A DNA stretch of 64,000 nucleotides from Salvelinus alpinus (taxonomy: Eukaryota; Chordata; Actinopteri; Salmoniformes; Salmonidae). Below are positions 1 through 44,646 of the stretch, piece by piece. Made by a program: the position numbers and the translations under genes. The stretch is taken from contig NC_092096.1 in NCBI RefSeq assembly GCF_045679555.1, positions 28,590,364-28,654,363 on the forward strand, given 5' to 3'. The first letter of the stretch is position 1. The number at the start of each line of letters is the position of its first letter. The notes beneath the pieces are model-generated. The model searched no databases, had not been told where the DNA came from, and worked only from the letters and a program-made list of their open reading frames with translations.

Positions 1-3000
1 CTGAGAGCAAGAGTAAGAAATGCCACATTTTATACCATACAGAATCACTTCAATGTGCTGGGACAGTCCCACCTACTTCCTGCATCCTGTCACATACTGT
101 TTTTGAATGGGCTTTAAAAAATCATGAAAACATGGGCATTTAAGATATAATATTCTAGTTGTATTCGTGGATTAATTTACTTCTACCTGATGCCTTTTAT
201 GAAGGTTTTCAATTGTTTTTGTAATCAAAAACCATAAGGCATCAGGTAGAATTTCACATATCTCAAATGACTGTGTTTTTCATGAATTTGATGATATAAT
301 CTTGAAGCCCATTAAAAAACAGTATGCAACTTTATCCAGGAAGCAGGGGGACTTTCTTAGTGTATAGGTAAAATGTAGAAAATAGTTTTATGCAAAGTAT
401 CAGACTTGATCACTTTTCTTGCAGGTAAACCCTGTCAGCCTCCGGACCCTCCTTTATAGAATAAAGTCTTCTCAACATGCACAGGTTGGTGAATCAAAGT
501 ATGAATACAATGCCAAGATTGGAGATTTTGTTCTGCTGGACACTTATGAGATAATTAACACCCTCATAATTCAGAAACGTTTAAAAACAAGAGATTTAAG
601 ATTGTTGGTATGGATGGTTGTGCGCCATTTGTCTGAAAGTCTAAAAATGATTGTTTATTTATTTATTTTTTACTTTTTTTACAGTCCAATGATGCAGGCA
701 TGGAATCACCTGAAGCTAACTTTTCCAAGCTCACCCAAAGCTTGATTATAGACCCGGTTGAGCGTGAACACTTCGTCCAAGTAAGTAGCTGTTAATGCCA
801 AGCTTGTCTTGAACCTACAAGGCCTTCCCACACTACGTCAGATTCAGTCTTTTACGATTATTACATGTCACACTGTGCAACGTGACCAAATTAAAATCTT
901 GACATCAACCTGGCTGGGTTGTACGGTTTAACTCAGTTCTGTTGTCATATTCTACGATTGGCTTGCGAGGCTATGTCAGTCGACTTAGGCTACGTCAACT
1001 GGGCGTATCAAGCATTGGTGTCAAAAGAAAAACAACAAGCTGTTGCTATGTTGATTGACAGACAATGCTCCTCCTACCTCTGTGACTGAGCGGTCCTTGT
1101 AATAAAAAGCTAAATTCTTGAATTGAAGAGGCTCATCACAACATGGAAACGCTAATGCCGAATATAAGCCCCGTAGCATAATCATTGGCATTACTCAATA
1201 AAAGCATTGCAATTTTGACATTCAAGGTGTGATGGTTATTTATAACTACAGAGCCAATTACTTGCACCAAGCTTTCATTCTACAAAGTGTGATTTTAAAA
1301 AAAAAAATTTTTTTTATGAATGGCGTCATTGCTGGTCGTTTTCTTATTGATACTGCCATAACTTTTTCGGAGCTTAGGAAAAGTAGAGGTATTTAAAGGA
1401 AAATTCCACCCAAAAACTATCTTTTGGTATTTGTTTTATTAGTCCATTGTAGGGCTGGGCGACTAAATCAAAATAATTTGAAATTATGTTTTGTACGATA
1501 TTCCAAGTAACTGTATCGCAAGAATCAAGTGTTTTTATTTTTTCATTTTTGAGTGTTTATGTCCACTTGTTTTCATGTCTTTTTGGTCTCGTCTCCTTCG
1601 CTCTGTGATGTGTGCGCCTTCCCATTTTACACCAGAGATCTGTATGTAATGATGAGATGCATGTCTTCGCCCTAACAATTGGGGTTGTTGTCCCGAAAGC
1701 AAGCTTAGGTCCACTATAAGCCCATTTGAAACGCATTGGGCTTATTTTGGACAGATTTTAGCTTGCGTGAAACTGATCACTTCACCTCTTCCTCTTGTTT
1801 ACACACACCAAGCCACTCTCCCTGTCACTCACAACAACAAAGATGAGAGATCACGTCTTCCTCCTTGACAAGCGGTTTCAACTTGCTATTTGCATTTGAA
1901 AGAGGAAACTAATAAATGAAAGAGAAATTGCAAAAAGGAGGAGCGTAAGTAGTAAAAGTTACAGGTCCATTGTGATATTCTGAGAGAGCATCTTGTGCAT
2001 CTAAGTGCTGCATTCAACACTGTTGACCATGATGTCCTTCTGAACAGACTGGAGAGGTGGGTTATGTGTCCAGTACAGTAGGTCCCTCAGGTCCTCTGGT
2101 GCACTGGCCTTTTAACTATCCCAAAGCCTAGAACCAGGAGTCATGGAGAGGCAGCCTTTAGTTACTATGCCCCCAGCCTCTGGAATAGCCTGCCAGAGAA
2201 CCTGAGGAGGGCCGAAACTGTGATTTTTTTTTTTTAAAGATCTTAAAACACACCTTTTTAGCTTTGCTTTTACTTGGGGTGCTTTTTAGTTGTTCAGTTT
2301 GTTATTCATCCTCTTGTTGTGTAGTAAATATAGCATTTAAAAAAAATAAATGTGAAGAACATTATTGCATTCCATGGCTGAAATGTGCTGTATAATTAAA
2401 GCTTGATTTAACCTGTGTAATTTTCTGTAGCCTAATGCCTGCTACGTTAAGTTAGTCATTATTAGTGAATGTGCATTATGCAAGGTTCTGATAATGTGTC
2501 CCTTTCCAACAATGTAGAGAAATAATATAAATTAGAAATAATTACAATGAGTAACAATAACCTGGCTATATACACGGGGTACTGTCGGGAAGAGTGGGTT
2601 GTGCCCGACTACACAAGCAGCAATGAGTGTAAACATGAGTTCAAGTTTTAGATGCTTTTACATTAGGTTTTTGTGTCTCTGGCATTGTAGTCCACAAACC
2701 GTTCAGTCCAGATGGTGTTTGAAGACGGCGGCCACCTGTAGTCTCTTGCGGCGGTGTGGCTTCACTGGCAGAGTACGTAACACTCCTTCTAAGAGGTCTG
2801 TGGAAGGGGAGAGTAGGCATGCTGTGTCTTCCTAACTGCTCACTTGAGTTAGGTCCAGCCTGCACTCTTGTGCCAGTCAGTTGATTAGGGAATTCCTTGC
2901 AGGTGTGCTGATTAGTAATCCTGCACAGGTGTGTTGGGTGAGCAGCGTTCTGGCTGTCTTCGGCTGGCCTGGTGCTGAAGGTAGTGCAGCCTTGCACAGT

Positions 3001-6000
3001 GCTGAACTGAGTGCCATTGTCCATGGGGCTGAAGTGAGCGCACCTCTCTCCTGTGCTAAGGTGGATGGCTCTGTCCATGTTGCTGCACTGAGAGTCCTTC
3101 AGCCAAACCTATGCCCATGCCTCTCATGGTGCCACACAGCCCTCCCTTTAACTCCGAGCCATGAAACGAATTGGTGGAAGAGAAGAGAAAATGGAGCCGG
3201 GAGAGGGCATCAGCGTTCCCATGAGCAGACCCTGGTCTGTGTCAAACCACAAAGTTGTATGGTTGGAGCTCGAGGAACCAGTGAGTCACCCGGTCATTGG
3301 GGTCCTTGGCCATCCACTGCAAGGGTGCATGGTCTGTCTCCAGGGTGAACTGCCTTCCCATGAAATGGTAGGATCGGGAGCAGGCAGCCTATTTTATAGC
3401 CAGACATTATTTTCCAGATATTATTTTTCTGCGGTAAGCATACTTCCGTTCCCTGGGTAGGAGCTTTTGACTGATAAATAAAGCATAATGTTCTTAACCA
3501 TCCCAGACCTGGGACTGGACGGCTCCTTGTCCAGTTTCAGAGGCGTCTGTTTGGACGACGAAAGGCTTGGAGTAGTCTGGTGACCTCAGGACTGGTCCTG
3601 AACAGAACGAGGTTTGAAGATCCACAGAATAAACCGCCGGTAGTAACTGGCCAGTCCCATGAAGGCTCTCACCTGAGTCTTGGTGGTTGGATGAGGTCAG
3701 TTGCTTGGATACCAGGACGATAGGGCTGGCCCTCTGACTTTTTGACTCCTCTATGGCATCCAACTCGCACACATTTTTGACCTCGGCGCAGACGGCTTTG
3801 CGATGAGCTTCAAGGACCCTATACGGCTTGACGTGTACAGTCTTCCCAGGTAGCATAAGGATATCCTGCTCTAGCACATCTGTCCGCCCTGGCAAAGAGG
3901 TAAATGTATCCGTGTACTGATCAACAAAGTGTCTTACCTCTTGGAGTTGTTGGGGAGTAAGGTCTTGGCCCATGTTTATGACATCTCTGGGTATTTCCCG
4001 AGGAAGCTCTGGAGACAAAGGCCAAAGTAACATCATCCTCCTCCCACTTCTTCAGAAGGTTGATGTGATATACTTGCTCTCGATCTGGCTGGTTTATCCC
4101 GTACGTCATTGGGTCTAGTTTCTCCATGACTGCGTAGGGCTGCTGCCACCGGGCGAGGAACTTGCTTTCTGTGGTGGGAAGAAGGCGCACTCGGTCACCA
4201 GGATTGAACTCTAGGAAGGCCCACCCTTGCGAACATATGTACCAACTCCTTGGCTATGGCCTTGGTAGGGATGGTTCATAGGGTAATTGCCTCTGGGTAC
4301 CTGGTGGCATAGTCTACCACCACCAGGATATATCGGTATCCTTTCCCAGACTTTGGGAGAGGTCCAACTAGGTCTATCCTTAGTCTATCAAATGGGGTCT
4401 CAATGATAGGTAGCGGGGTACGCCCTACTGGGGATGTCTGCTGACAGGTGGGAAACCTCTGACAGTACTGTGAGACAGACATGTAGATTCCCGGGCCAGT
4501 AAAACTTCTGTAGGATTTGTTCCCATGTCTTTTCCTCACCCAGATGAGTGCCCAAGATGTGAGAGTTGGCCAGTTGGAGAACAACTGGAACATACACTTT
4601 GGGCACTAGGAGGATATAAGTTATTCGCCTACTTCTTTAACCTATAGAGTAGCCCTTGATGAAGGGCAATGTAAGGAGTCACCAAAGGGCATTTGCGAGG
4701 TTTTGGTCTCTGGGCATCACCAAAACGGCCCTGCAACAGAACTGAGAAGTCATTGATATGTAGGGGAGGCTCACCTTCCACATCAGTGGTATCTCCGTTG
4801 TCCTCAGGCTGGTCTGGTTGTGTGGCATCACCCAGCAGCACCTTTACTGATCTCTGCTGGCGAGAATGTTTTTTAGTATGTTGACCCTTCAGAACAGGCA
4901 GCAAAGACTTGGGTCTATGGGTGTGGTGAAGAGCAGAGGTAGTGCGAAATGAATTTTTGCTTACCCCAGCAGCCTCAAAGACTCAAATCCCAGGCAGTTT
5001 CGACTCGGGAGCAGAGGGGTTGTCAATTCTGTCATCACCCCTGCAATGACCGTCCATGCCCCACAATCAGTGTTGAACCGGATGTGGGATGTCTTTGGTG
5101 TGTCCCCATGGATGCAGGTGAGGGGTATGGTGTTGTGGTTTCGAAGACCCCCTACAGGAATCTATTCTGTCAGCGTGACTGCTCTGCCAGAATAGGTTAT
5201 GTGAGCCCACCTGCACTAGATACTAGCGAGCAGGTACCTCACTTCCCTCCTCCCTCAGGTCCCACAAGTGGCAATTGCTGTTAGTCGAGTAGGGTACCCT
5301 TGGTCTCACATTTTCCGCACCAGACAACATTATGTCGCTCCTCTCTGGCTGGGAAGTAAGCGGCAGTTTTGGGAGGCTCATATTTTCTTGAGGAAAAAGG
5401 TTGTCCGGTTGTTTCTTCATAGGTGAAGGTCATTCCTGTTAGTTTGACTTAAGTGCATCTTTTGAAGCCCCCAACTTTTCCACCAGCTAAATCATGTCCT
5501 GGTAAGTCTGAGCATCTGGCATTGTTGGGTGGCTGCTTTGTGCAGATCATAGGGAAGGCCTCTCATGAACTGGTCCAGGCCTTATGGCTTCAGACAATTT
5601 TTTCCCAAGCCGCCTTCGGTGGTATAATTGGGCCCGGGGTACCTGGCCAGCTTGTTATTCCCAGGTTCTGAACCGGTGGGCGCATTGCAAAGGGGTTGAG
5701 CCTTAATCTGCTCAGGATCTCCTCCTTCAAACGGTCATAGTTAATGACCCCTACTGTCCCCAGATCCTGATAGCCTTGTTGGGCCTCTCCTGTGAGATAC
5801 GGGCTACAAGAGCGGCCATGTCATCCGGTCCCATAACTCTCTCTCTCTGCCACTCTCAAACATCAAGAGAAAAGCCTCTGGGTCATCAGCGTCAGTTATC
5901 TTAGTGAGTGTCTCTCTTGCCTTACTGGCGGGTGAGCGAAGAGGGACTGGACCCCTAAGCTGTTCCAACAGGCCTCTGATCTTCCAGGGTACCTTTGAGG

Positions 6001-9000
6001 TGGGTAATCTGTTGTACGAGCCGGCCATGCCTTCTACCATGGTATCAGAGATCTGTTGGCTGACTCCATGAAGATTTATGAGTTATCCCAGCATGTTTTC
6101 CAAGTTTCCAACTCCAGGATTAGACAGGGTTCCGCTCTTGCACAAAAAAAAAGTTGAAAGAAAATGCAATAAGTTGTGTTTTTACTCAGATGTCTGCATT
6201 CTCCATCATATGTCGGGAAGAGTGGGGTGTGCCCGACTACACAAGCGGCAATGAGTAAACACACAACAAAAGAGTAAAAGTTTCAGATGCTTTAGCTTTT
6301 AGTGTCTCTTGTGTTCTAGTCCACAAGCAGTTCAGGCAAGAGGGTGGTTGAAGATGTCGGCCACCTGTAGTCTCTTGCGGTGGTGTGGCCTCACTGGCAG
6401 AGTCTGTAACTCCCCTTCCAGGGAGTCTGTGGAAGGAGAGAGAAACAGTGTAAGTGGGAGAGTAGGCACAGTGTAGCTGTGCCTTCCTAACTGCTACAGG
6501 ATAGATAATAGATAGTAAAAGCAGCATGCTGTGATGATTTAAGAGTTCAATGCAGATACTCTGTGTAGCTATTGATTAACTATTTAACAGTCTTATGGCT
6601 TGGGGGTAGAAGCTGTTCAGGGTCCTGTTGGTTACAGACTTGGTGCATCAGTACCGCTTGCTGTGCGGAAGCAGAGACAACAGTCTATGACTTGGGTGGT
6701 TGGTGTCTTTGACCATTTTTAGGGCCTTCCTCTGACACTGCCTGGTATAGAGGTCCTGGATGGCAGGGAGCTCTGCCGTACGCACTGCTCTCTGTAGCGC
6801 CCTGTAGGCTGTCTCATCATCGTCAGTGATCAGGCCTACCACCGTTATGTTATCGGCAAACTTAATGATGGTGTTTGAGTTGTGAGCGGCCACACAGTCG
6901 TGGGTGAACAGGGAGTACAGGTGGGGACTAAGCACGCACCCCTGAGGGGCCCCCGTGTAGAGGGTCTGCATGGCGGATGTGTTGTTGCCTACCCTCACCA
7001 CCTGGGGGGCGGCCCGTCAGGAGGTTCAGGATCCAGTTGCAGAGGGAGGTGTTTAATCCCAGGGTCCTTAGCTTAGTGGTGAGCTTGGAGGGCACATGTC
7101 AGCAATCGAGTTTTCAAGATATAGAACTTTCGAAATACACAAATACCAAAACGCAGCATCATATGATGATGCAAAACTCAGCTGTATTTTGAAAGTTATA
7201 CATCTTAACTCGATTGCTGACATACAAAACATTTTGGGGCTACATCAACAATGGACTAATGAAACAAATACCAAAAGAGTGGAGTTTTCCTTTAATCGGC
7301 AGACCCTGTCACATTGATCAAGCCAAGACGTCCGACAATTGTTTACGACCTAAGAATTTACCCACAATGTGGACATTTTGTCTGGATGGCAAAATCGTGT
7401 CATAAGGCGGCTAAAATCATGCAGTCTGTGCGGGCCTTTACTTGAACATTTTCTCTGGCCTAACTCAAGTTAGTTATGATGTTTGTGGAGAATATAGTTG
7501 AGTTGAGATTCGGTAAGATTGTTAGTCAACAAGATAGCATTTGAATAGTGAATAGGCCTACGCTACTAGAAATCATAACTAGTCATTCACTAACATTAAT
7601 TTGTCTGTGCTGTGTTTACACAGACAGCCCAATTCAGATTTTTTTCCCAGTAATTGGTATTTTGACCAATCAGATCTGATGTGAAAAAATCTGGTGTGAT
7701 TGGTCAAAAGTGCCACAACATGCAGCCTTACATGCCACAACACTGATTTCTGTTCTTTGCGTACTGGATTGTGCTAGCCTGAGTGCCAAGACAGCAGAAA
7801 CAGGCTTGGTACCCAGGCTAGGATCATGCAGGGTCTCTCAAACAATAATTCATTGATATAATTATTTTCCCTTTTGCATTATCTCACTGACTCTCTATCT
7901 TTTCAGGTGGTGTTTCCTGAAGAATTCAGACCTGATTTTGACCAAGTGCTTCAGGAACTGGTCTGTGACTTCCTCACTCGGCTGGAAGAGCTGCTTACAC
8001 TACCAGACTTTAAGCAGGTGCAGAAATCACTTTCGTAAGATTGTCTTGAGACAACGGCATTCAAATGAATAACTGTAGTTGGCCTGGAATCTATTTTGGC
8101 ATTTTATTTGTGTCCCTCTTTTCCCTAGACTGCATTGTTGCTGAGTGCTGGCTCCTCTGGCCTGGATGAATGCCTGCAATCTTTCTCTCACTCAGAAGAT
8201 CTCCAGTTTCTGCTCCAGAATTACAAACAATGCAGAACATTGTACACAAACAGTAAGTTCATAGAAAATTATAAATTTTTCATGCATCATTTTAGCACCA
8301 CATGGTCAGATAAGGTTTATTGATATAACAACTGCATCTGAGGAGAATAATATGATTTATGTGCAGGAAGTTCCTCTCACCATGTTCCTTACCTTCCTTG
8401 TTCATTTGAAAGGGATTTAAAGTTGGAAGGATTAGTCAAATAAAGTGACGGATTAAAATGTAATTTATGGATTTGAGAAGTTTTGCCTCTGTGTTCAGAA
8501 CAGTCACCTAGATAAAAAAGTGTGTTTTTAATGTATTTGTTTTTGTCTGTGCAGTTTCCTCCTCTGACATTCCTCAGGAATCAGATATTGAATCTGATGC
8601 TTTCCCTGACCAGTTAAACCGTACCAATCTGGACACTGGTGTGGGGATGAGGACTGGGATACAAAGCAGAGACTGCCAAAGGATGGAGTTGGCATCACAT
8701 TTAGTGGAAATGGGGAGCACAAGAGATATTATAGGCTGCGATGAAACCTGTGATGAAGGGAATGAAGATGACATTGATGTAGAGGACGACCCAAAACAGA
8801 AAAGGTATGAGAATAAATGTATTTTTGTTATTTCAAACAGTACAGTTGGTAAATAATCATTTGCATTTGGACAGTCTATCAAACAAACTTACCACTTGAC
8901 CCAGTAATAGTCAACCATTTGCATTTCTGTTTTGTGCTGTTCACAGGGCTTGTTCTGGTCTTTCTCCTACCAGTGTCATGCAAGGTGGTGATACAGGTGA

Positions 9001-10438
9001 GACCTCACTAACTTTTAGTTGAGTACATTTACCCTTTGGAAAGCCTCAGTTGACCATTGTGGGGCAATGGTAGGGGAAACTTCCTCATGAGTTCAATATT
9101 TGTATTCATTTTTCCACAGACACTGTTGCAGGGGTATCGTTTCAGGTGTTGACTCCTCTTTCTTCAGCTTCAAATGAGTGTGCCCCATCTACTTCCAGTT
9201 CATCACACATGAACATTTTCCACCAGTGTCCCCAGTGTGGAAAGTGCTTTAATTATCAGTCTCAACTTGTCCAACACCAGCAAATTCACTGTGGGGACAA
9301 TCCATACAAGTGCTCCAACTGCGGGAATAGATTCAAATTCTTTACAAGTCTGTCAAATCATAAGAGGATGCAATGTGTGGGCACTGCCTTTAGCTGTCCC
9401 AAGTGCTGGAGAGAGTTTGGTTCTCTGCGGGAGAAATTGAGACACCAGTGTCCACACAACGAAGTCATGTACATCTGTCCACAGAGCGGGAAGAGTTTTA
9501 AGACGCCACAGCAACAACCATTCCAGTGCCGTCATTGCGCAATGGCCTTTTCCGAAATGGATCAACTGCATGCTCACGAAAAAATTCACGGAATCCCCCA
9601 AACTCTTGACTGTCACACATGTGGAATTACATTCAGCAACTTGCCCAGCCTCGTGCACCACGTGGAAGCCCACAAGAGGTCGGATCTGAGGCCATCGTCA
9701 CACCTTCCAAAGAAGAAGAAAGGATTGCAGCTTCCGAAAACTCACCATTGTCACCAATGTGGAAAGTCCTTTGTAACAAACCGACGCCTTAAGGATCACG
9801 TTCGTACTCATTTGAATTATCGTCCCTTCCCCTGCTCCTACTGTGGAAAATGTTTCACTCAGAAAGGTAATCTCAATGTGCACATAAGGATCCACACAGG
9901 GGAGAGACCCTACATGTGCTCTGTGTGTGGGAAGACCTTTCAGTCAGCAGGGAATCTGCAGGTACACCAGCGCTTTCACACTGGGGAGAAACCCTACCAA
10001 TGCAAAGAGTGTGACAAACGTTTTACTAAGTCGAGCCATTTAGTCGTCCACATGCGTGGGCATACTGGAGAGCGTCCTTTCACTTGTAATGAATGTGGAA
10101 GGAGTTTTATCCGGAAAACTTGCTTAAAGAAACATTTGCTAGTTCATTCAGGACAGAAGCCTTATTCACGGCCTCGTTGCCCGAATAATTCCAAGCGCAG
10201 TTCACAACCAAGCTATCATATGAAGGAGAATCCTACTAATGCGAGTGCCATGACTGGACATGCGACTGCCATGGCTGGACATGCGGCCGCCATGGCTGGA
10301 CATGTGGCCGCCGTGGCTGGACATGTGGCCGTACCAGCAATCTATCATGACAGCCTTAACATAAAAATGTTGGCACATGTTGGCATGTCCCGAGGCTATG
10401 CCATGGAGAGACTAGGAGGTGGTCCTTCAAATTGTTGA
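1..10438 (+). CDS. TINF2_N-domain C2H2 zinc-finger protein, copy 1 (5' end outside window)
   Basis: Eight exons are inferred by alignment with copy 2 and by GT-AG sites: <1-12, 425-484, 685-780, 7907-8017, 8129-8252, 8555-8804, 8947-8996 and 9120-10438. The sum is 2022 nt, divisible by three, and no internal stop is seen. Exons 1-5 encode a helical domain that resembles the N-terminal domain of TIN2 (TERF1-interacting nuclear factor 2). Landmarks are [20 protein letters not shown] in exon 4 and a [19 protein letters not shown] stretch in exon 5. Exon 6 is an acidic linker ([14 protein letters not shown]). Exon 8 carries the fingers. A nuclear DNA-binding regulator is likely from family knowledge; its target and the role of the TIN2-like domain are unknown. 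Exon 2 is 24 nt (8 codons) shorter than in copy 2, in frame. Intron 3 is swollen to 7.1 kb by transposons. The start codon is outside the window. Confidence 0.8.
1393..1446 (+). repeat. End of a palindromic MITE (family C), detached half
   Basis: The segment from AAAGGAAAATTCCACC to AGTCCATTGT is the inverted match of 7230-7291, where TGGACTAATGAAACAAATACC and AGTGGAGTTTTCCTTT are found. The two stretches look like the two ends of one palindromic MITE now 5.6 kb apart. Confidence 0.5.
1447..1985. repeat. Unclassified interspersed repeat in intron 3 of copy 1
   Basis: The segment starts with AGGGCTGGGCGACTAAATC, a motif common at the edge of fish interspersed repeats, and continues as AT-rich non-coding sequence. 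No open frame, terminal repeat or target duplication was found. It could be a degraded hAT-type non-autonomous element; this is a guess from the opening motif. Confidence 0.3.
1986..2400 (+). mobile_element. LINE fragment (reverse transcriptase remnant)
   Basis: Translation near 2010 gives [17 protein letters not shown], the fingers/palm motif that precedes the catalytic site in non-LTR reverse transcriptases. It is followed after a deletion by a C-terminal LINE-like stretch ([24 protein letters not shown]) and an A/T-rich tail. The core of the RT is missing, so this is a dead fragment, probably of the L2/Rex group. Confidence 0.6.
2505..2582 (-). mobile_element. LINE 3' untranslated piece, left of the Gypsy insertion
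   Basis: The sequence ending CTGGCTATATACACGGGGTAC resembles the 3' untranslated part of the LINE family seen at 26541-28183 and 56580-56806, in reverse orientation. It stops exactly where the Gypsy LTR begins. The matching piece of the same LINE resumes on the other side at 6497, so the LTR element probably landed in this LINE. Confidence 0.5.
2583..3138 (-). repeat. Gypsy LTR, complete copy (556 bp)
   Basis: The repeat runs from TG to CA on the + strand. It shares its first approximately 280 bp with the stretch starting at 6211, and is bordered internally by the polypurine tract. It is the 3' LTR of the - strand element. Confidence 0.65.
6211..6496 (-). repeat. Gypsy LTR, partial copy
   Basis: The repeat starts TGTCGGGAAGAGTGGGGTGT, matching the copy at 2583 with scattered differences and small length changes. 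It ends early, joined to LINE sequence at about 6497. Confidence 0.65.
6497..7093 (-). mobile_element. LINE fragment (Rex/L2-like), reverse orientation
   Basis: The - strand translates to [20 protein letters not shown] and [15 protein letters not shown], followed by a FADN version of the FADD catalytic box and by [18 protein letters not shown]. It is the same family as the + strand LINE at 26541-28183. The thumb region is deleted. The left part belongs to the 3' untranslated region and continues at 2505-2582 beyond the Gypsy insertion. The right edge (7093) is the 5'-truncated end and abuts the MITE half at 7094. Confidence 0.75.
7094..7292 (+). repeat. Palindromic MITE (family C), main part
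   Basis: The segment carries an internal inverted repeat: ATGTCAGCAATCGAGTTTTC near 7097 pairs with AACTCGATTGCTGACAT near 7207. Its right end is the inverted match of 1393-1446. No coding capacity is present. Confidence 0.55.
7618..7738. repeat. Palindromic MITE (family B), copy 1
   Basis: The sequence contains ACACAGACAGCCCAATTC and an inverted pair built on TTGACCAATCAGATCTGA. Three further copies lie at 25328-25478, 28184-28312 and 39958-40068. Confidence 0.55.
9120..10438 (+). CDS. Zinc-finger exon (exon 8) of copy 1
   Basis: The exon begins after an acceptor at 9118-9119 and ends at a TGA at 10436-10438. It encodes about 11 recognisable C2H2 units starting at CPQCGKCF, joined in the second half by HTGE(R/K)P(Y/F)-type linkers. 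Finger 2 ends H-x4-C (C2HC). Finger 4 lacks its second cysteine (CPQSGKSF). The twelfth unit, canonical in copy 2 (YSCLRCPN), has lost a cysteine here (YSRPRCPN) and its final histidine context. The reading frame then runs on about 75 residues past the point where copy 2 stops. This tail contains four 7-residue repeats of the type AMAGHAA (10247-10330). Compared with copy 2, the exon start is nearly identical while fingers 4-6 differ clearly. Confidence 0.85.
10247..10330 (+). repeat. Four tandem 21-bp repeats coding for AMAGHAA-type heptads
   Basis: Four in-frame 21-bp units each encode A-(M/V)-(T/A)-G-H-(A/V)-(T/A). They lie in the C-terminal extension of copy 1 and have no counterpart in copy 2, whose protein ends just before this point. 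Confidence 0.85.
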
Positions 10439-11362
10439 ACGCTGCCCTGCGCACGGAAAAATTTCCCAATACTCCCCCCCCGGCCCTACCTCTCACTTTT
10501 GAGTATCCATCTTAGAGGGTAGTTGGGAGTGCAATTCGCTAGGGAAGCAGCAAGTTATGGGGAAAGATCAATACTAGTCCAGAGAGATTAATGGGTGTTC
10601 TAATTATTGTTAACATGGAAACAACTGCATTTTTCATTGTAGGTTTCAAACAAACCCTCTGCAATGGCTTCATGCACGGAATTGAATTGGAACAACTAAC
10701 AATTTATCATTAACACAGAAACAAAGGAATTGTCTGGTGTAGGTTTTCCAAAAACGTGCGGCAATGGCATCATTCACGGATGGGGGAGGGGCTTTGGAAG
10801 GTGAAGGGGGTGTAGACTCTAGTCTTTCTCTATACATCATGTCTCAGAACCTCATCAAGTAGCTGATTTGGTTGCCAAGGTTACCGGACCAGTTAAGAAG
10901 CTACTTTATAGTTTCATGTGATGTTCTGTTTTTCTCATTACAAATATTATTCCTTTACAGATGTATTATAAACATGTAGAGCTGTTTGCATGTAGACATG
11001 TTTATGTAATAGGAGCGGTAGTCATGGATAGAGGTTGAACTGGTGAAATGCATGTGCAATTGTAATATAAGTATTTACTCTTAACAGTAATAATGATAAT
11101 GTGTTATTTGATAAGTGTATTTCTAGACTTTCAAGGAATCTAGAAAAGTGTATTTCCTGGTGTTATATTTGGAGGGTTGTGATATTCTTTGTTATACCTA
11201 TTATTAAAGGTTTTAATACTTAAGCTTCTATTTATTTATTTTTTAGGGGCATTCAGCACTGTGCTCTCTCTGTGTTACATGTGACCAACCTGCACAATCA
11301 CATGCTATCGCAACACCATTAGGTTGTATATTCTGTTTTCTGGGTTATTGGCTGCTCACAAC
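10439..11362 (+). other. 3' flank / probable 3' UTR of copy 1
   Basis: No gene is seen. An ATTAAA at 11203-11208 is a plausible polyadenylation signal. Two imperfect direct copies of about 71 bp (10609-10680 and 10709-10780) end in TTCATGCACGGA and ATCATTCACGGA. Confidence 0.45.
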
Positions 11363-14193
11363 TATGGTTGCAAAGGGTCAGAAACTTTCCATGGGAAGTT
11401 AAGCCCGGGAATTTGGGGAATTTTGCTAAAAGTCATCAAAAAAGTTGGCTCATAAAAGTTAACCTTTTTTTGTGGGAAACACATACGGCAATTCTAGGTC
11501 TTGCGGCATATTTTGGTTAAACTATCCCCAATTCAATGGAATTGCAACCCTCTGCATGCACAGTGCATTCTTCCATCACATGTACAGCTGATTCTCAAGG
11601 TCTTGCACACTAATGAGATGCTATTGGACCAACACTACTACACTGTCTGAGCCAAGGACTACATGCTTTCTGGTAAGTTTTCATTACAATACTGGGTGGG
11701 GTGAATATATTTTATGACATAAAATATTTTTTGTTAACTAGTAAACAGTAGCCTACAGCAAAGTGTGTTTAAATCATTTCTAACTTGTTAACAATTTATG
11801 CTAGTTAGTTTTTGCTACCATGTGGGTGTTAGCTTATTTGAGCCTGCTAACTGAGGAGTGTTAATTCACCTGTTTCCATACATATTTCATTTTAAAACAT
11901 TTATCTTACAAAGGAGTTGTTTAATCTAATTGCTTAACTATATCTGTACATGGAATTGTATTTGGTTTTTTCTTAAACTCTTTTTTTCTAATCTTTACAG
12001 GAAAATGTCACTGTCTAATGTGTGGAGACATTTCACTGCAGCTAATGTAGAAGGAAAAGCTGTGTACATTTGCAAATACTGTGCCAAATCATATGTGAAG
12101 AATGCAACAAAGATGCAGAATAATCTGGCCAAGTGCATAAAGTTCCCTCAGCACTCACAACAAGCAACCTCTGACAAAAGTCCCTCTACTTCTATTTGAT
12201 GTGAAAATGATGAATCAGACACCTTATCGATAGCAACAGCTCATGGTCCTCCTGGAATCCGAAGTTTTTTTGACTCAATGGAGGAACGTAGTCAAAGAAA
12301 GGCTGATGAATGTCTTGCTCGAGCTGTGTATGCAACTGGTTCACCTCTGATGCTCACAGGCAATGTGTATTGGAAGAGATTTCTGAATATTCTTCGCCCA
12401 GCAAACACCTGTCCAACCAGATATACTTTATCTACTCATTTGCTGGATGCAGAGTTCAAGTAAAGGTCAAGCAAATCATAGAGAAAGCAGACTGTATTGC
12501 AATCATCTCTGATGGGTGATCGAATGTTTGTGGGCAAGGAATAATTAACTACATAATCTCCACCCTTCGACCAGTATTCTACAAGAGCACAGACACTAGG
12601 GACAACACACACCGGACTCTACATTGCAGATGAGCTGAAGGCAGTCATCAATGACCTTGGACCACAGAAGGTATTTGCACTGGTGACAGACAATGCTGCG
12701 AACATGAAGGCTGTTTGGTCTAAAGTGGAGGAATCCTACCCTCGCATCACACCCATTGGCTGTGCTGCTCATGCATTGAATCTGCTCCTCGAGGACATCA
12801 TGGCACTGAAAACGGATACACTACGAGAGCCAAGGAACTGGTTAGGTATGTGAAGGGTCATCAAGTTATAACAGCAATCTACCTCACCAAGCAAAGTGAG
12901 AAGAATAAGAGCACCACATTGAAGCTGCCCAGCAACACCCGTTGGGGTGGTGTCATCATGTTTGACAGTCTTCCTGGAGGGGAAGGAGTCTCCAAGAAAT
13001 GGTCATATCGCAGTCTGCCGATATGGACAGCCCCATCAACAGGATCCTCCTGGATTATGTATTTTGGGAGAGAGTGGTAAGCAGCCTGAAACTCCTGAAA
13101 ACTATAGCAGTAGGCATGGCACGGATTAAGGGAGACAATACCATCCTGTCTGATGTTCAGACTCTGCTTGCAGATGTAAGAGAAGAAATCCGTACTGCCC
13201 TGCCCACTTCACTGTAAATCCAAGCAGAGGAAACTGCAGGTCTGAAATACATCAAAAAGCGTGAAGACTTCTGCCTGAAGCCCATACACGCCACAGCTTA
13301 CATGTTGGACCCTAAGTATGCTGGCAAGAGCATCCTGTCTGGTGCAGAGATCAACAAGGCCTATGGTGTCATCACTACCATGTCTCGCCACCTTGGCCTG
13401 GATAAGGGCAAGGTTCTTGGCAGTCTGGCAAAGTACACTTCCAAGCAAGGGCTTCGGGATGGAGATGCAATGAGGCAGTCGTGCCAACATATCTCATCAG
13501 CCACCTACTGGAAGGGACTTTGTGTTTCTGAGGCTCTTTCCCCTGTTGCCTCCATCATCCTCCAAATCCCACCAACATCAGCCGCCTCAGAGCGCAACTG
13601 GTCCTTGTTTGGGAACACACACACACCAAAGCACGCAACAGACTGACCAATACAAGGGTTGAAAAATTGGTGGCCATCCTGCAAATTTTAGGCTTTTTGA
13701 GCCTGACAACGAGCCATCCTCAACAAGGTTGGAAAGTGACAGTGAAGATGAGGCCTCAGAGTCTGAGGAGGAAGCCTGAGAGGAAGAGGATTTAATCTGA
13801 GAGGAACCAAAGATTTAGTTTCTAGACTATAATTTTACAGATGTATGTTGAAAACATTTTTGGGAGATGCGATGGATCATTGGGGATCATTCAATATTCC
13901 CTTTCTTTTGTTGTTCAGTGAAATCATCCCATGTGAAGAGTCAACTAATTTAATTAAAGTTAAATTTGTAACTAAATTGTTGTTGTTTTTTTCTATTGGA
14001 AGGATTTAATCATTTGCAATTATGTCTACTTATGATAAGGTAAAAGGTTTATGTTTCTGTCTCCATATATGGTAAATATATCCAATGCAAAAAACATCTA
14101 CAATTAAGTGGTATTAATATTACTTTGCATATATTCCGTTAATTCCCACGGAAAGTTTCCACCTCTGAATATTCCCCAAAATGTGCAACCCTA
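11363..14193 (+). mobile_element. hAT DNA transposon with BED finger, degraded
   Basis: An 8-bp duplication CTCACAAC flanks both sides (11355-11362 and 14194-14201). The ends are inverted (TATGGTTGCA against TGCAACCCTA). A BED-type zinc finger begins at 12004 (MSLSNVWRHFTAANVEGKA, then YICKYCAKSY). The middle encodes hAT transposase segments (LGPQKVFALVTDNAANMKAV near 12655). The C-terminal dimerisation region is seen near 13540-13610 (PTSAASERNWSLFGN). Several stops and frame changes interrupt the frame, including a stop after the BED finger at about 12197, so the element is not autonomous. It lies between copies 1 and 2. Confidence 0.85.
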
Positions 14194-14201
14194 CTCACAA
14201 C

Positions 14202-15176: not shown

Positions 15177-15317
15177 AGGGTCGTATAGGAACAACCCGTA
15201 GCTAAACGTTTTGCAACGGAACATGTAAACGAGCGTTTCTAATTGGACAAATTCGGGTCGTCGCTCCACGTTTCGGTCAGTTTTCTAGCACTTGGTGTCT
15301 AGTGAAAACGACCCTGA
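15177..15317. repeat. Small terminal-inverted repeat element
   Basis: The segment opens with CAGGGTCGTATAGGAACAAC and closes with GAAAACGACCCTGA, so the ends are inverted. The interior is non-coding. It resembles a common short salmonid repeat, by memory only. Confidence 0.4.
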
Positions 15318-15414
15318 CGTCAAGGAAGTAGCTGGATATCTAGCTAGCTATTGTGCGGTTTCTAGCAAAACCTCTTGTATATCTAACGTTAGCTAGCTGT
15401 GCCTTTCGATATTT

Positions 15415-15672
15415 TAAAGCAATAAGACCGAGGGGTTGTGGTATATGGCCAATATACCACGGCTAAGGGCTGTTTTTCATCACGACGCAACGCGGAGTGC
15501 CTGGATACAGCCCTTAGCCGTTGTATATTGGCAATATACCACAAACCCCTGAGGTGCCTTATTGCTATTATAAACTGGTTTCCAAGGTAATTAGAGCAGT
15601 AAAAATACATATTTTGTCATACCTGTGGTATACGGTCTGATATACCACGGCTGTCAGCCAATCAGCATTACA
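15415..15672 (+). repeat. Palindromic MITE (family A), copy 1
   Basis: A near-perfect palindrome of about 160 bp is built on GTGGTATATGGCCAATATAC and its reverse complement, with GCAATAAG and CTTATTGC at the edges. A side arm extends to CCACGGCTGTCAGCCAATCA. A second copy in the opposite orientation lies at 63340-63597. Confidence 0.7.
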
Positions 15673-15901: not shown

Positions 15902-18900
15902 ATTACCCCATCCCTCTCTCCTCCCTGCGCCTTTTGGTCCCACCTCTACGACTGATGTCTGCATTTATGTGGCAGGTATCACAACAGAGGGCCATTAAGC
16001 ACTATGGAAAATTAGAGGAGTTTGTGACCGTGGTAACACAAACTGTCCCAGAACTTATGACTGACAGACAGAGGACCCTTCTTATTTTGGGGCTGAGAGC
16101 AAGGGTAAGAAATTCTGTCTAATCTTTCATACAGGATCACTTCAATTGGTGAAGTGCAGAGAATAGTTTTATGCAAAGTATCAGACTCCATCACCACTTT
16201 TCTTGCAGGTAACTTTGGGGCGATTTTCTGCTGAACACCCTGTTAGCCTCCAAACCCTCCTTTATTCTATAAAGTCTTCTCAACTTGCACAGGTTCAGGT
16301 TGGTAAATCAAATGTCATAGTACAATGCCAATATTTGAACTTTTTTTCCCCCTGCTGGACACTTAAATGAGAATTAACACCCTGATAATTCAGCCACATT
16401 AAAATCAAGAGCTTAAGTTTGTTGGTATGGACAGTTGTGTGCCATTTGTCACCCCCTTTAACACAAAGTGTAAAAATGACCGTCCGGTTTCAGTGTGTTT
16501 TCCACATTGTTTTACAGTCCTATGATGCAGGCATGGAATCACCTGAAGGTAACTTCGCCAAGCTCACCCAAAGCTTGATTACAGACCCAGTTGAGCGTGA
16601 ACACTTCGTTCAAGTAAGTAGCTGTTCATGTCAAGCTTGTCTTGAACCTGTTTTAGTTTAACATTTTCTTTAGCCTGACTCAACCTAATAATAATTTATT
16701 TTGCTTATATAGCGCTTCTCATTACAAAATATAATCTCAAAACACTTCAAAAGCAAAACAAACCTGCACAGCAAATAATCAAAATGGAAAGTGAATGGTG
16801 TCTAGTCAGCTTCAGATAGTTGAGGCAGTTTGGAAAGGCAGTCTCTGCCATATGGCTTGACTGGATCGATGGTACAGCCAGGGAGAACCTAGTAATAATG
16901 TCCTTTAAAAATTGCATTTTGTTGTATGATAAGTCATAACTAGTAGACCCTGGCAAGAGAGAAGAAAAAGACTTGGCACCCAAAGTAGGATCATGCAGGG
17001 TCTCCCAACCAATCATTAAGTAGGCTAACCGTTTTCCTTTTGCATTATCTCACTGACTCCATCTTTTTAGGTGGTGTTCCTTGAGGAATTCAGACCTGAT
17101 TTTGACAAAGCGCTTCAGGAACTGGTCTGTGACTTCCTCACTAGGTTGGAAGAGCTGCTTACACTACCAGACTTTAAGCAGGTGCAGAAATCACTTTTGT
17201 AAGACAGTCTTGTAAGACAGCATTCAAATTAATAACTGTAGTTGGCCTGGAATCTATTTTGGCATTTTATTTGTGTCCCTCTTTTCCCTAGACTGCATTG
17301 TTGCTGAGTGCTGGCTCCTCTGGCCTGGATGAATGCCTGCAATCTTTCTCTCACTCAGAAGATCTCCAGTTTCTGCTCCAGAATTACAAACAATGCAGAA
17401 CATTGTACACAAACAGTAAGTTCATAGAAAATTACTCATTTTTTATACCAATCATTTTAGCGCCACATGGTCAGATAAGGTTTATTGATGTAACAACTGC
17501 ATCTGAGGATCAATCAATCAAATGTATTTATAAAGCCCTTCTTACATCAGCTGATGTCACAAAGTGCTGTACAGACACCCAGCCTAAAACCCCAAACAGC
17601 AAGCAATGCAGGTGTAGAAGCACAGTGACTACAAAAAACTGCCTAGAAAGGCCGGAACCTAGGAAGAAACCTAGAGAGGAACCAGGCTATGAGGGGTGGC
17701 CAGTCCTCTTCTGGCTGTGCCGGTTGGAGATTATAGCAGAACATGGCCAAGTTGTTCAAATGTTCATAGATGACCAGCAGGGTCAAATAATAATAATCAC
17801 AGTGGTTGTAGAGGGTGCAACAGGTCAGCACCTCAGGAGTAAATGTCAGTTGGCTTTTCATAGCCGATCATTCAGAGTATCTCTCCCGCTCCTGCTGTGT
17901 CTAGAGAGTTGAAAACAGCAGGTCTGGGACAGGTAGCACGTCCGGTGAACAGGTCAGGGTTCCATAGCCGCAGGCAGAACAGTTGAAACTGAAGCAGCAG
18001 CACGACCAGGTGGACTGGGCACAGCAAGGAGTAATCAGGCCAGGTAGTCCTGAGGCATGGTCCTAGGACTCAGGTCCTCCGAGAGAGAAAAAGTGAGAGA
18101 GAATTAGAGAGAGCATACTTAAATTCACACAGGACACCGGATAAGACTGGAGAAATTCTCCAGATATAACAGACTGACCCTAGCCCCCCGACACAAACTA
18201 TTGCAGCATAAATACTGGAGGTTGAGACAGGAGGGGTTGGGAGACACTGACGATACCCCCGGACAGGGCCAAACAGGCAGGATATAACCCCACCCACTTT
18301 GCCAAAGCACAGCCCCCACACCACTAGAGGGATACCTTCAACCACCAACTTACCACCCTGAGACAAGGCCGAGTATAGCCCACAAAGATCTCCCCCACAG
18401 CACAAACCCAAGGGGGGCGCCAACCCGGACAGGAAGATCATGTCAGTGACTCAACCCACTCAAGTGACGCACCCCTCCTAGGGACGGCATGGAAGAGCAC
18501 CAGTAAGCCAGTGACACAGCCCCTGTAATAGGGTTAGAGGCAGAGAATCCCAGTGGAGAGAGGGGAACCGGCCAGGCAGAGACAGCAAGGGCGGTTCGTT
18601 GCTCCAGTGCCTTTCCGTTCACCTTCACACTCTTGGGCCAGACTACACTCAATCATATGACCTACTGATGAGATGAGTCTTCAATAAAGACTTAAAGGTT
18701 GAGACCGAGTCTGCATCTCTCACATGGATAGGCAGACCATTCCATAAAAAATGATCTGATTTATGTGCAGGAACTTCCTCTCACCATGTTCCTTACCTTT
18801 CTTGTTCATTTTAAAGGGATTTAAACTTGGATGGATTAGCCAAATAATAAACAATTTGACAGATTAAAATGTAAATTAGGGATATGAGAAGTATTCAGAA

Positions 18901-21900
18901 CAGCCTGGCAGATATTCAATTTATTTAACGTATTTGTTTTTGTCTGTGCAGTTTCCTCCTCTGACATTCCTCAGGAATCAGATATTGAATCCGATGCCTT
19001 CCCTGACCAGTTAAACCGTACCAATCTGGACTCTGGTGTGGCTATGAGGACAGCACATTTAGTGGCAATGGGGAGCACAAGAGATATTATAGGCTGCGAT
19101 GAAACCTGTGATGAAGCGAATGAAGATGACATAGATGTAGAGGACGAGTCAGCACAGAAAAGGTACAGTGCCTTCAGAAAGTATTCACACCCCTTGACTT
19201 TTTCCAAATGTTGTTGTGTTACAGCCTGAATTTAAAATTAAGATTAAATTAAGATGTTTTGTCACTGTTCTACACACAATACCCCACAATGTCAATGTTA
19301 AATTATGTTTTTAGACATTTTTACAAATGAAAAGCTGAAATGTCTTGAATCAATAAGTATTCAACCCCTTTTTTATGGCAAGCCTAAATAAGTTCAGGAG
19401 TAAATATTTGCTTAACAAGTCACATAAGAAGTTGCATGGACTCACTCTGTGTGCAATAAGTGTTGAACATTATTTTTCAATGACTACCTCATCTCTGTAC
19501 CCCACACATACAATTATTTATTAGATCCCTCAGTTAATTTCAAACACAGATTCAACCACTAAGACCAGGGAGGTTTTCTAATGCTTCGCAAAGAAAGGCA
19601 ACTATTGGTAGATGGGACTTTGAATAGCACTTTGAGCATGGTGAAGTTACTAATTATACTTTGGATCGTGTATCAATACACCCAGTCAGTACAAAGATAC
19701 TAGCGTCCACTCAGTTGCTGGAGAGGAAGAAAACCGCTAATGGTGAATATAAAACAGTTGCAGAGTTTAATGGCTGTGATAGGAGAAAACTGGGGATGGA
19801 CAACAACATTGTACACTGCTCAAAAAAATAAAGGGAACACTTAAACAACACAATGTAACTCCAAGTCAATCACACTTCTGTGAAATCAAACTGTCCACTT
19901 AGGAAGCAACACTGATTGACAATAAATTTCACATGCTGTTGTGCAAATGGAATAGACAAAAGGTGGAAATTATAGGCAATTAGCAAGACACCCCCAACAA
20001 AGGAGTGGTTCTGCAGGTGGTGACCACAGACCACTTCTCAGTTCCTATGCTTCCTGGCTGATGTTTTGGTCACATTTGAATGCTGGCGGTGCTTGCCCTC
20101 TAGTGGTAGCATGAGACGGAGTCTACAACCCACACAAGTGGCTCAGGTAGTGCAGCTCATCCAGGATGGCACATCAATGCGAGCTGTGGCAAGAAGGTTT
20201 GCTGTGTCTGTCAGCGTAGTGTCCAGAGCATGGAGGCGCTACCAGGAGACAGGCCAGTACATCAGGAGACGTGGAGGAGGCCGTAGGAGGGCAACAACCC
20301 AGCAGCAAGTCCGCTACCTCCGCCTTTGTGCAAGGAGGTGCAGGTGGAGCACTGCCAGAGCCCTGCAAAATGACCTCCAGCAGGCCACAAATGTGCATGT
20401 GTCTACTCAAATGGTCAGAAACAGACTCCATAAGGGTGGTATGAGGGCCCGACGTCCACAGGTGGGGGTTGTGCTTACAGCCCAACACCGTGCAGGACAT
20501 TTGGCATTTGCCAGAGAACACCAAGATTGGCAAATTCGCCACTGGCGCCCTGTGCTCTTCACAGATGAAAGCAGGTTCACACTGAGCACATGTGACAGAC
20601 GTGACAGAGTCTGGAGACGCCGTGGAGAACGTTCTGCTGCCTGCAACATCCTCCATCATGACCGGTTTGGCGGTGGGTCAGTCATGGTGTGGGGTGGCAT
20701 TTCTTTGGGGGGCCGCACAGCCCTCCATGTGCTCGCCAGAGGTAGCCTGACTGCCATTAGGTACCGAGATGAGATCCTCAGACCCCTTGTGAGACCATAT
20801 GCTGGTGCGGTTGGCCCTGGGTTCCTCCTAATGCAAGACAATGCTAGACCTCATGTGGCTGGAGTGTGTCAGCAGTTCCTGCAAGAGGAAGGCATTGATG
20901 CTATGGACTGGCCCGCCCATTCCCCAGACCTGAATCCAATTGAGCACATCTGGGACATCATGTCTTGCTCCATCCACCAACGCCACGTTGCACCACAGAC
21001 TGTCCAGGAGTTGGCGGATGCTTTAGTCCAGGTCTGGGAGGAGATCCCTCAGGAGACCATCCGCCACCTTATCAGGAGCATGCCCAGGCATTGTAGGGAG
21101 GTCATACAGGCACGTGGAGGCCACACACACTACTGAGCCTCAATTTGACTTGTTTTAAGGACATTACATCAAAGTTGGATCAGCCTGTAGTGTGGTTTTC
21201 CACTTTAATTTTGAGTGTGACTCCAAATCCAGACCTCCATGGGTTGATAAATTTGATTTCCATTGATCATTTTTGTGTGATTTTGTTGTCAGCACATTCA
21301 ACTATGTAAAGAAAAAAGTATTTAATAAGAATATTTCATTCATTCAGATCTAGGATGTGTTATTTTAGTGTTCCCTTTATTTTTTTGAGCAGTGTAGTTA
21401 CTCTACAATACTAACCTGATTGACAGAGTGAAAAGAAGGAAGCCTGTACAGAATAACAAATATTCCAAAACATGCATTATGCTTGGCCTACCGAATGGTG
21501 CAGCAGTCTAAGGCAATGCATCGCAGTGATAGAGGCGTCACTAGAGACCCGGGTTCGATCCCGGCCTGTATCACAATCGGCCGTGATCGGGGGAATCCCA
21601 TAGGACGGCGCACAATTGGCCCAGCGTCATCCGGGTTAGGGAAGGGTTTGGCCAGGGGTGCTTTACAAGTAGGCCGTCATTGTAAATGAGAATTTGTTCT
21701 TTACTGACTTGCCTAGTTGAATAAAGGTTAAATAAAACATTAAAATACAAGGCACTAAAATAATACTCAGTACCACTCTCCATATTTTCAAGCATACTGG
21801 TAGCTGAATCATGTTATAGGTATGCTTGTAATCATTGGGGACTGGGGAGTTTTTCAGGATAAAAAGTAAACGGAATGGAGCTAAGCACAGGCAACATTCT

Positions 21901-23697
21901 AGAGGAAAACCAGGTTCAGTCTGCTTTCCACCAGACACTTGGAGATGCAGGACAATAACCTAAAACACAAGACGAAATCCACACTGAAGTTGCTTACCAA
22001 GAAGACCGTGAATGTTCCGGAGTGGCAGAGTTACAGTTTTGACTTACAGCTGTAATCGCTGCTAAAGGTGCTTCTACCAGGTCTTGACTCAGGGGTGTGA
22101 ATACGTATGTAAATTAATTATTTCTGTATATAATTTAATACATTTGCAAACATTTCTAAAAACATGTTTTCACTTTGTCATTATGGGGTATTGTGTGTAG
22201 ATGGGTGAGAATATTTTTTATTTAATCCATTTTGAATTCAGGCTGTAACAGCAAAATGTGGAATAAGTCAAGTGGTGTGAATACTTTGAGACACTGTATG
22301 TGATAATTAATTTATAAAATTTTGTTGTTTGAAACAGTGCATCAAACAACTTTACCACTTGACTTAGTAATGGTCATCAATTTGCATTTCTGTTTTGTGC
22401 TGTTCACAGGGCTGGTTCTGGTCTTTCTCCTACCAGTGTCATGCAAGGTGGTGATACAGGTGAGACCTCACTAACTTTTAGTTGAGTACATTTACCCTTT
22501 GGAAAGCCTCAGTTGACCATTGTGGGGCAATGGTAGGGGAAACTTCCTCATGAGTTCAATATTTGTATTCATTTTTCCACAGACACTGTTGCAGGGGTAT
22601 CGTTTCAGGTGTTGACTCCTCTTTCTTCAGCTTCAAATGAGTGTGCCCCATCTACTTCCAGTTCATCACACGTGAACATTTTCCACCAGTGTCCCCAGTG
22701 TGGGAAATGCTTTAATTATCAGTCTCAACTTGTCCAACACCAGCAAATTCACTGTGGGGACAATCCATACAAGTGCTCCAACTGCGGGAATAGATTCAAA
22801 TTCTTTACAAGTCTGTCAAATCATAAGAGGATGCAATGTGTGGGCACTGCCTTTAGCTGTCCCAAGTGCTGGAGAGAGTTTGGTTCTCTGCGGGAGAAAT
22901 TGAGACACCAGTGTCCACACAACGAAGCCATGTACATCTGTCCACAGAACGGGAAGAGTTTTAAGACATCACCGCAATATCCATTCCAGTGCCGTCACTG
23001 TGCAAGGAGCTTTCCCGAATCGAATCAACTGGACACCCACGAAAAAAGTCACAGTGTCGTCCAAACGCTTGACTGTCACAAATGTGGAATGACCTTCAGC
23101 AACTTGCCCAGTCTAGTGCACCACGTGGAAGCCCACAAGAGGTCGGATCTGAGGCCATCGTCGCATCTTCCAAAGAAGAAAGGATTGCAACTTCCGAGAA
23201 CACACCATTGTCACCAATGTGGAAAGTCCTTCGTAACAAACCGTCGTCTCAAGGATCACATGCGTACTCATATGAATTATCGTCCCTTTTCCTGCTCCTA
23301 CTGTGGTAAATGTTTCACTCAGAAAGGTAATCTCACTGTGCACATAAGGCTCCACACAGGGGAGAGACCCTACATGTGCTCTGTGTGTGGGAAGGCGTTT
23401 CCATCAGGAGGGGATCTGCAGGTACACCAGCGCTTTCACACTGGGGAGAGACCTTACCAATGCAAAGAGTGTGACAAACGTTTTTTTAAGTCGAGCCATT
23501 TAGTCGTCCACATGCGTGGGCATAGGGGAGAGCGTCCCTACACTTGTAATGAATGTGGAAGGGGTTTTATCCGGAGAACTTGCTTAAAAAAACATTTGCT
23601 AGTTCATTCAGGGGAGAGGCCATATTCATGTCTTCGTTGCCCGAATACTTACAAACGCAGTTCACACCTGAACTATCACATGAAGAAAAATCATTGA
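15902..23697 (+). CDS. TINF2_N-domain C2H2 zinc-finger protein, copy 2
   Basis: Exons: 15902-16104, 16209-16292, 16518-16613, 17071-17181, 17292-17415, 18952-19162, 22410-22459 and 22583-23697. From the first in-frame ATG (15955, MSAFMWQV) the coding length is 1941 nt, or 646 residues, fully open. The first exon reads [11 protein letters not shown]...[20 protein letters not shown], which parallels the TIN2 N-terminus. Exon length from the AG at 15900-15901 is 203 nt, exactly as in copy 3, so an upstream 5' exon may exist and the true start is uncertain. Exon 6 is 39 nt shorter than in copy 1, in frame. Twelve finger units end with HMKKNH. Introns 5 and 6 hold insertions absent from copy 1. 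The polyadenylation signal may be AATAAA at 24513. Function is inferred: nuclear DNA-binding regulator. Confidence 0.82.
17507..18748 (-). mobile_element. LINE-related interspersed repeat in intron 5 of copy 2
   Basis: The left edge is a TCAA-type short repeat (ATCAATCAATCAAATG), which read on the - strand is the simple tandem tail typical of L2/Rex LINEs. The body is the abundant salmonid repeat with GGCCAGTCCTCTTCTGGCTG and related motifs. Copy 1 has an uninterrupted intron at the same place (about 8341), so this is an insertion after the duplication. No intact coding frame is seen. The family assignment is tentative. Confidence 0.55.
19814..21394 (+). mobile_element. Complete Tc1-like transposon (1581 bp), nested
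   Basis: Ends are identical inverted repeats beginning CACTGCTCAAAAAAATAAAG, flanked by TA at 19812-19813 and 21395-21396. The element carries one uninterrupted transposase gene. Both ends and the gene look whole, which suggests a young copy. It lies inside the outer Tc1 element in intron 6 of copy 2. Confidence 0.92.
20111..21136 (+). CDS. Tc1-like transposase, DD34E, intact
   Basis: The protein has 341 residues from the ATG at 20111 ([14 protein letters not shown]), the usual Tc1 length. The N-terminal paired-type helix-turn-helix ([20 protein letters not shown]) is followed by a GRRR basic hook region. The catalytic triad is visible: D152 in [10 protein letters not shown]243 in LMQDNARPH and E278 in [12 protein letters not shown], with 34 residues between the second D and E. 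The glycine-rich box [13 protein letters not shown] is present. The family cuts and pastes DNA at TA sites. No stop or frame change is seen; whether it is expressed or active is not known. Confidence 0.93.
21484..21742 (+). mobile_element. tRNA-derived SINE
   Basis: A tRNA-like head has an A-box region (TGGTGCAGCAGTCTAAGGC) and a clear B box (GGTTCGATCCC at 21552). The body and the tail TGACTTGCCTAGTTGAATAA match the shared 3' end of salmonid SINEs (Slm/HpaI type by memory). It is inserted in the outer Tc1 element. Confidence 0.8.
22583..23697 (+). CDS. Zinc-finger exon (exon 8) of copy 2
   Basis: The exon encodes twelve finger units. Finger 2 is C2HC (H-x4-C), finger 4 lacks a cysteine (CPQNGKSF), and a basic spacer ([14 protein letters not shown]) separates fingers 6 and 7. 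Fingers 7-12 are canonical with HTGERPY linkers. The first about 340 bp differ from copy 1 at only a few positions and the preceding intron is identical, while fingers 4-6 differ strongly. Confidence 0.88.

Positions 23698-29350: not shown

Positions 29351-44646
<15,296 letters not shown>

Follow-up and report, generated by a model that had tools for sequence, protein, structure and literature searches.

The window, a 64,000-nt stretch of the 2.37-Gb Salvelinus alpinus genome (C11:28590364-28654363), contains three paralogous genes, two in tandem on the forward strand (genes 1 and 2) and one on the reverse strand (gene 3). Each joins a TIN2-like N-terminal domain (TINF2_N) to a C2H2 zinc-finger array through an acidic linker, as the initial annotation had proposed (Table 1). 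In our joined-exon models, every gene has eight exons, all 21 introns have GT...AG borders, and the joined exons give an open frame that runs through to a stop codon in all three genes. The phases of the introns closing exons 1–7 (0, 0, 0, 0, 1, 2, and 1) are identical in the three genes, and two domain exons, 3 and 4, have a single length throughout; the shared phases of the five domain exons and the equal length of two of them had been noticed previously. For gene 1, the part of exon 1 beyond the window was taken from the genome sequence immediately upstream. In 10140-10438, the last finger of gene 1 has lost two zinc ligands that are present in gene 2, and the frame continues into a short tandem repeat.

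Table 1. Exons of genes 1-3 and mobile-element frames in the window
Feature	Positions	Strand	Description
Gene 1 exon 1	1..12	+	last 12 nt; remainder upstream of window; joined-exon model
Gene 1 exon 2	425..484	+	TINF2_N; 24 nt below gene 2 model length
Gene 1 exon 3	685..780	+	TINF2_N; 96 nt
Gene 1 exon 4	7907..8017	+	TINF2_N; 111 nt
Gene 1 exon 5	8129..8252	+	end of TIN2-like region
Gene 1 exon 6	8555..8804	+	acidic linker
Gene 1 exon 7	8947..8996	+	linker
Gene 1 exon 8	9120..10438	+	C2H2 array, 10 fingers by pattern, repeat-bearing tail; stop-to-stop frame 9074-10438
Gene 2 exon 1	15902..16104	+	TINF2_N; 203 nt
Gene 2 exon 2	16209..16292	+	alternative donor after 16298, 6 nt beyond model
Gene 2 exon 3	16518..16613	+	96 nt
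Gene 2 exon 4	17071..17181	+	111 nt
Gene 2 exon 5	17292..17415	+	
Gene 2 exon 6	18952..19162	+	acidic linker
Gene 2 exon 7	22410..22459	+	linker
Gene 2 exon 8	22583..23697	+	C2H2 array, 11 fingers by pattern; stop-to-stop frame 22537-23697
Gene 3 exon 1	44444..44646	-	TINF2_N; 203 nt
Gene 3 exon 2	35669..35761	-	
Gene 3 exon 3	35466..35561	-	96 nt
Gene 3 exon 4	35080..35190	-	111 nt
Gene 3 exon 5	34762..34882	-	
Gene 3 exon 6	34084..34654	-	acidic linker, 571 nt; 10-residue motif near start
Gene 3 exon 7	30798..30868	-	linker
Gene 3 exon 8	29351..30702	-	C2H2 array, 15 fingers by pattern; stop-to-stop frame 29351-30748
Mobile-element frames	20024-21133 (+), 51159-51953 (-), 13218-13643 (+), 32481-32939 (+), 3497-4051 (-)		Tc, hAT, reverse transcriptase, RNase H

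Exon 1 follows a splice acceptor and its first codon is one base short, so the start codon must sit in a further upstream exon. Conserved blocks and ATG...G/GT patterns upstream of exon 1 in genes 2 and 3 did not locate this exon. When the ~940 upstream bases were examined for the ATG...G/GT pattern in most of the 21 family copies described below, and likewise in a second copy of gene 2, some copies showed isolated candidates, and only near-identical duplicates had any in common.

A TIN2-type domain ahead of DNA-binding parts

The TINF2_N profile (PF14973; 149 positions, curated Pfam cut-off 29.4 bits) matched gene 3 with an E-value of 4.8e-45 (154 bits) and gene 2 with an E-value of 1.5e-36 (126.4 bits), in both cases over profile positions 1-149, and matched the in-window part of gene 1 with an E-value of 6.5e-18 (65.9 bits). 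The gene 1 match is limited to positions 68-149, since only 12 nt of its exon 1 fall inside the window. The absence of a significant match, which the initial annotation had named as grounds for abandoning its TIN2-like assignment, did not occur; all three genes scored far above the cut-off. When a profile of the three window domains (gene 1's almost without exon 1) was compared with 177,635 distinct PDB sequences, human TIN2 (5xyf_A; E 4.1e-10) was the sole match at E 1 or better. Over the aligned residues, gene 2 is identical to human TIN2 at 39/158 and gene 3 at 42/158. No relatives were confirmed in bacterial and viral collections.

The TIN2-like domain comprises about 206 residues across five exons and is followed by linkers with net charges of -17, -17, and -13 in genes 1-3, respectively. 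In gene 3, the only array that was profile-scanned whole, zf-C2H2 matched with an E-value of 3.5e-61. Neither KRAB nor SCAN matched at E 0.01 or better in the whole of gene 3, in gene 2 to residue 332, or in the domain of gene 1.

The same domain recurs across the genome. At least 125 TINF2_N matches, each above the Pfam cut-off, were scored (60 exon-1-type, 62 exon-4-type, and 3 other matches); the genome counts are lower bounds because the search was made exon by exon and 150 of 196 candidates were scored. A same-strand exon 4 lay within 20 kb of 58 of the 60 scored exon-1 matches (median distance 1,153 bases), and at least two of these 58 pairs are decayed copies (the locus L010 and the counterpart of gene 3). 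We fetched 10 kb around the best 20 of the 60 exon-1 matches by score, which is not a random sample. Finger arrays were present on the strand of the domain in 18 of these 20 stretches, and on the opposite strand in none; at the level of copies, 19 of 21 distinct exon-1 copies had arrays of 4 to 15 fingers. With the three window genes and two counterparts added to this sample, 34 of the 60 exon-1 places lie outside the survey for fingers. These genome-wide counts of domains and finger arrays fit the earlier suggestion that the domain occupies the place held by KRAB or SCAN in other zinc-finger proteins.

One family member carries a different DNA-binding part. In locus L027 (1584-9063, -; C11 about 31.757-31.766 Mb), eight Myb/SANT-like exons, in place of fingers, come after the TINF2_N exons, and Myb_DNA-bind_4 exceeded the Pfam cut-off in all eight. 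With the domain also standing ahead of Myb/SANT-like exons, it looks like a portable attachment for DNA-binding parts. A second atypical locus, L010 (900-3500; C23 about 16.48 Mb), is decayed and contains a long tandem repeat together with broken finger remnants. By eye, its exons 1-3 lie together and its exons 4-6 are continuous without introns, which gives it the look of a retrocopied family gene, as if made from spliced RNA. Both loci were considered as the true fish TIN2, and both were rejected, L010 as a decayed copy and L027 as a Myb/SANT fusion; no true fish TIN2 was identified to serve as a yardstick.

Several indirect signs favour joint splicing of exons 1-5 with the finger exons in the window genes. 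First, the phases are the same in the three genes. Second, all eight exons of gene 2 recur in order and gap-free in a second intact copy. Third, exons 4, 5, and 6 read on without introns (by eye) in the decayed L010 copy.

Gene 3 and 5 of the 21 fetched copies (L010, L016, L018, L022, and L027), which include both finger and Myb/SANT types, share a 10-residue motif, D[CT]I[LV]x[ST]LSLP, early in the linker exon; it is perhaps a docking motif.

Selection analyses of the genes and their fingers

Genes 2 and 3 each have a counterpart in a second segment, on C37. That of gene 2 is intact, with all eight exons gap-free and the same length as gene 2, and comparison of the two copies gave a dN/dS of 0.10 (29 synonymous and 11 nonsynonymous changes; p 5.3e-12). 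By part, the domain scored 0.07 (13 synonymous and 3 nonsynonymous changes; p 1.4e-6), the finger exon 0.12 (p 4.9e-6), and the linker 0.14 (p 0.13). An intact second copy at this overall dN/dS indicates that the gene 2 protein is under selection. The gene 3 counterpart is a pseudogene, with indels in exons 1, 3 (in frame), 6, 7, and 8 and, in the alignment, with the AG missing before exons 2, 5, and 7. Between gene 3 and this pseudogene, the overall dN/dS was 0.67 (p 0.08) and the domain value 0.39 (p 0.035), and the window copy of gene 3 presumably stayed under selection.

Between genes 2 and 3, dN/dS was 0.15 in exon 1, 0.31 in exons 2-5, and 0.18 in exon 8 (where synonymous sites are near saturation), with linker values of 0.79 in exon 6 (p 0.49) and 1.02 in exon 7 (17 codons). 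Between genes 1 and 2, it was 0.37 in exons 2-5 (p 0.016), 0.45 in exon 6 (p 0.18), and 0.38 in exon 8 (p 4e-5); constraint on the exon 6 linker was thus not significant in either comparison. At synonymous sites, exon 1 is much more similar between genes 2 and 3 than exons 2-5 are (15/51 vs 57/94 changed; p 0.0005), and change in this exon was denser past codon 58 (7/10 codons vs 12/58; p 0.004), a pattern that could reflect gene conversion or unusual constraint.

These results bear on whether the window genes are simply decaying or unexpressed copies without function, which we regard as very improbable. Decay does occur in the family, as the pseudogene on C37 and L010 attest, and gene 1 has a shortened exon 2, lacks two of the zinc ligands in its last finger, and ends in a tail that bears a repeat. 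However, genes 2 and 3 contain no stop or frameshift across eight exons, and the low dN/dS between gene 2 and its intact counterpart means that a functionless reading is already disfavoured for gene 2.

A different alternative is that the genes encode repressors that silence transposons and are engaged in an arms race, a role previously suggested for KRAB and FiNZ genes. The family is clustered and its finger contact residues differ between clusters, as might be expected on this proposal, for which FiNZ genes offer a precedent (PMC10547256). Moreover, three of 12 close pairs leaned toward contact change (6/28 v 5/77, p 0.064; 2/44 v 0/121, p 0.07; and 3/44 v 0/121, p 0.018), although these three pairs partly overlap and the p values are uncorrected. 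The other nine close pairs showed no excess of contact change (p 0.24 or more). Between genes 1 and 2, 4/44 contact positions had changed compared with 24/187 other finger positions (p 0.61), and the fingers of gene 2 are strongly conserved relative to its counterpart. In the eleven paired fingers of genes 2 and 3, contact residues were identical at 18/44 positions vs 36/118 elsewhere (p 0.26). No consistent signal of diversifying selection emerges, and the finger-contact data neither show nor exclude an arms race, which we hold to be a possible but unlikely explanation.

The putative partner-binding surface of the domain

The TRFH domain of TIN2 binds peptides of TPP1 and TRF2, and the TRFH domains of TRF1 and TRF2 homodimerise (PMC7617103). 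In human TIN2, the F152A or E153A mutation abolishes binding of both TPP1 and TRF2, the A15R mutation abolishes TPP1 binding, and K160 is irrelevant (PMC8262337). With human TIN2 as the reference, which may not be the rule for fish, the positions of F152 and E153 are occupied by C-D in genes 1 and 2 and by C-Q in gene 3, and the position of A15 is methionine in gene 2 and leucine in gene 3. In the 21 fetched copies, the F152/E153 positions are W-E in 12, W-Q in three, and G-G in six. Set against the window residues, these pairs indicate that family members differ at the F152/E153 site: many copies retain something close to the human pair, and the window genes do not. To judge from these substitutions, the domain would have a docking role with a partner that has changed in the branch of the window genes, and TPP1, docked as it is on human TIN2, is probably not that partner.

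This variation speaks to whether the link to shelterin has been kept, such that the domain binds fish TPP1/TRF2 and either brings shelterin parts to other loci or acts at telomeres. The aromatic tryptophan at the F152 position in 15 of the 21 fetched copies, with W-E in 12, and the fact that most of the domain can be aligned with human TIN2 are what such a link would lead one to expect. Against it stand the cysteine at the F152 position in all three window genes, the G-G pair in 6 of the 21 fetched copies, and the absence of [FY]xLxP (the FxLxP TRF1-docking motif) from all three window proteins. On balance, we find a retained shelterin link improbable.

The domain might instead serve for SCAN-like oligomerisation, pairing family members so that the target depends on which finger arrays are brought together. 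Dozens of clustered copies with contact residues that differ between clusters would suit such a scheme, as would the fact that TRF1 and TRF2 homodimerise through related TRFH domains; however, the same source gives homodimerisation for TRF1 and TRF2 and describes the TIN2 domain as a TPP1/TRF2 peptide binder (PMC7617103). We rate oligomerisation as rather unlikely.

We consider it fairly probable that the window genes belong to an expanded family of DNA-binding proteins that combine a TIN2-type docking domain, followed by an acidic linker, with C2H2 fingers. Directly supported are the identity of the domain at the sequence level, the architecture of the genes, the existence of the family, and selection acting on the gene 2 protein. 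Exons 1-5 are predicted to encode the TIN2-type domain, TRFH-like by sequence, exons 6 and 7 a flexible acidic linker, and exon 8 the fingers. DNA binding by C2H2 fingers is established for this type of protein. The fingers would pick DNA sites, and the TIN2-type domain would act as a docking platform that keeps a partner protein at the sites so chosen, probably holding it by a short peptide motif in the way that TIN2 holds TPP1/TRF2. By analogy, the docking domain would do the job of KRAB, SCAN, or FiNZ in other finger families. Weighing against this reading are the substitutions at the F152/E153 positions of the window genes and at the A15 position of genes 2 and 3, and the lack of significant constraint on linker exon 6. 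This arrangement suggests that a telomere docking domain has been reused as an attachment for gene-regulating proteins.

A bolder reading, to which we give an even chance, is that in this fish lineage the shelterin-type domain is now a general effector module, present in dozens of copies, joined to numerous C2H2 arrays and to one or more Myb/SANT rows, and serving a dedicated non-telomeric partner as a class comparable to SCAN or KRAB proteins. It is usually the N-terminal partner domain that defines a family of finger proteins; a TIN2-type domain in that position, in dozens of copies (some of them decayed) and with protein-level selection seen for gene 2, would add a further class and tie a part of the telomere complex to gene regulation.

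Relation to known families and genomic neighbourhood

Pfam or InterPro lists TINF2_N together with zinc fingers in fish. SCAN zinc-finger proteins have an N-terminal partner-binding domain, a linker, and a C2H2 array in the last exon. KRAB zinc-finger proteins likewise combine a partner-binding N-terminal domain, a linker, and a last-exon C2H2 array (PMC10547256), but the window proteins have neither a KRAB nor a SCAN match in the parts scanned. Genes 2 and 3 resemble TIN2 (TINF2) itself in carrying an N-terminal TINF2_N over its entire Pfam length, and they differ in the linker and fingers that follow, in lacking [FY]xLxP, and in the changed F152/E153 positions.

The nearest published families that we found are the FiNZ genes of cyprinid fish (PMC10547256) and the KRAB-like genes of ray-finned fish (PMC11603059). 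FiNZ genes also form a fish family with an N-terminal domain and a C2H2 array; the FiNZ sequence spans 28 residues of a single exon, and zebrafish has about 700 such genes (PMC10547256), whereas the window domain has about 206 residues in five exons, a distinction drawn from architecture only. The KRAB-like proteins are likewise finger proteins with an N-terminal effector domain, for which TRIM33 has been proposed as a partner (PMC11603059); the window genes differ in having a TIN2-type domain and no KRAB match in the parts scanned. Neither TINF2 nor TERF1 appears in the main texts of PMC10547256, PMC11603059, and PMC11620358, and no description of a TIN2-domain/zinc-finger fusion was found among the papers listed in searches of the open-licence literature.

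Beyond the three genes, the window contains a sodium:solute symporter exon (Pfam SSF; 48218-48925, -), which looks like SLC5A7, and frames at 60120-61740 (+) that have no Pfam match and that resemble dystroglycan. Tc-type transposase frames, a reverse transcriptase, an RNase H piece, and a hAT dimerisation match just below the Pfam cut-off lie in, between, and beyond genes 1-3 (Table 1).
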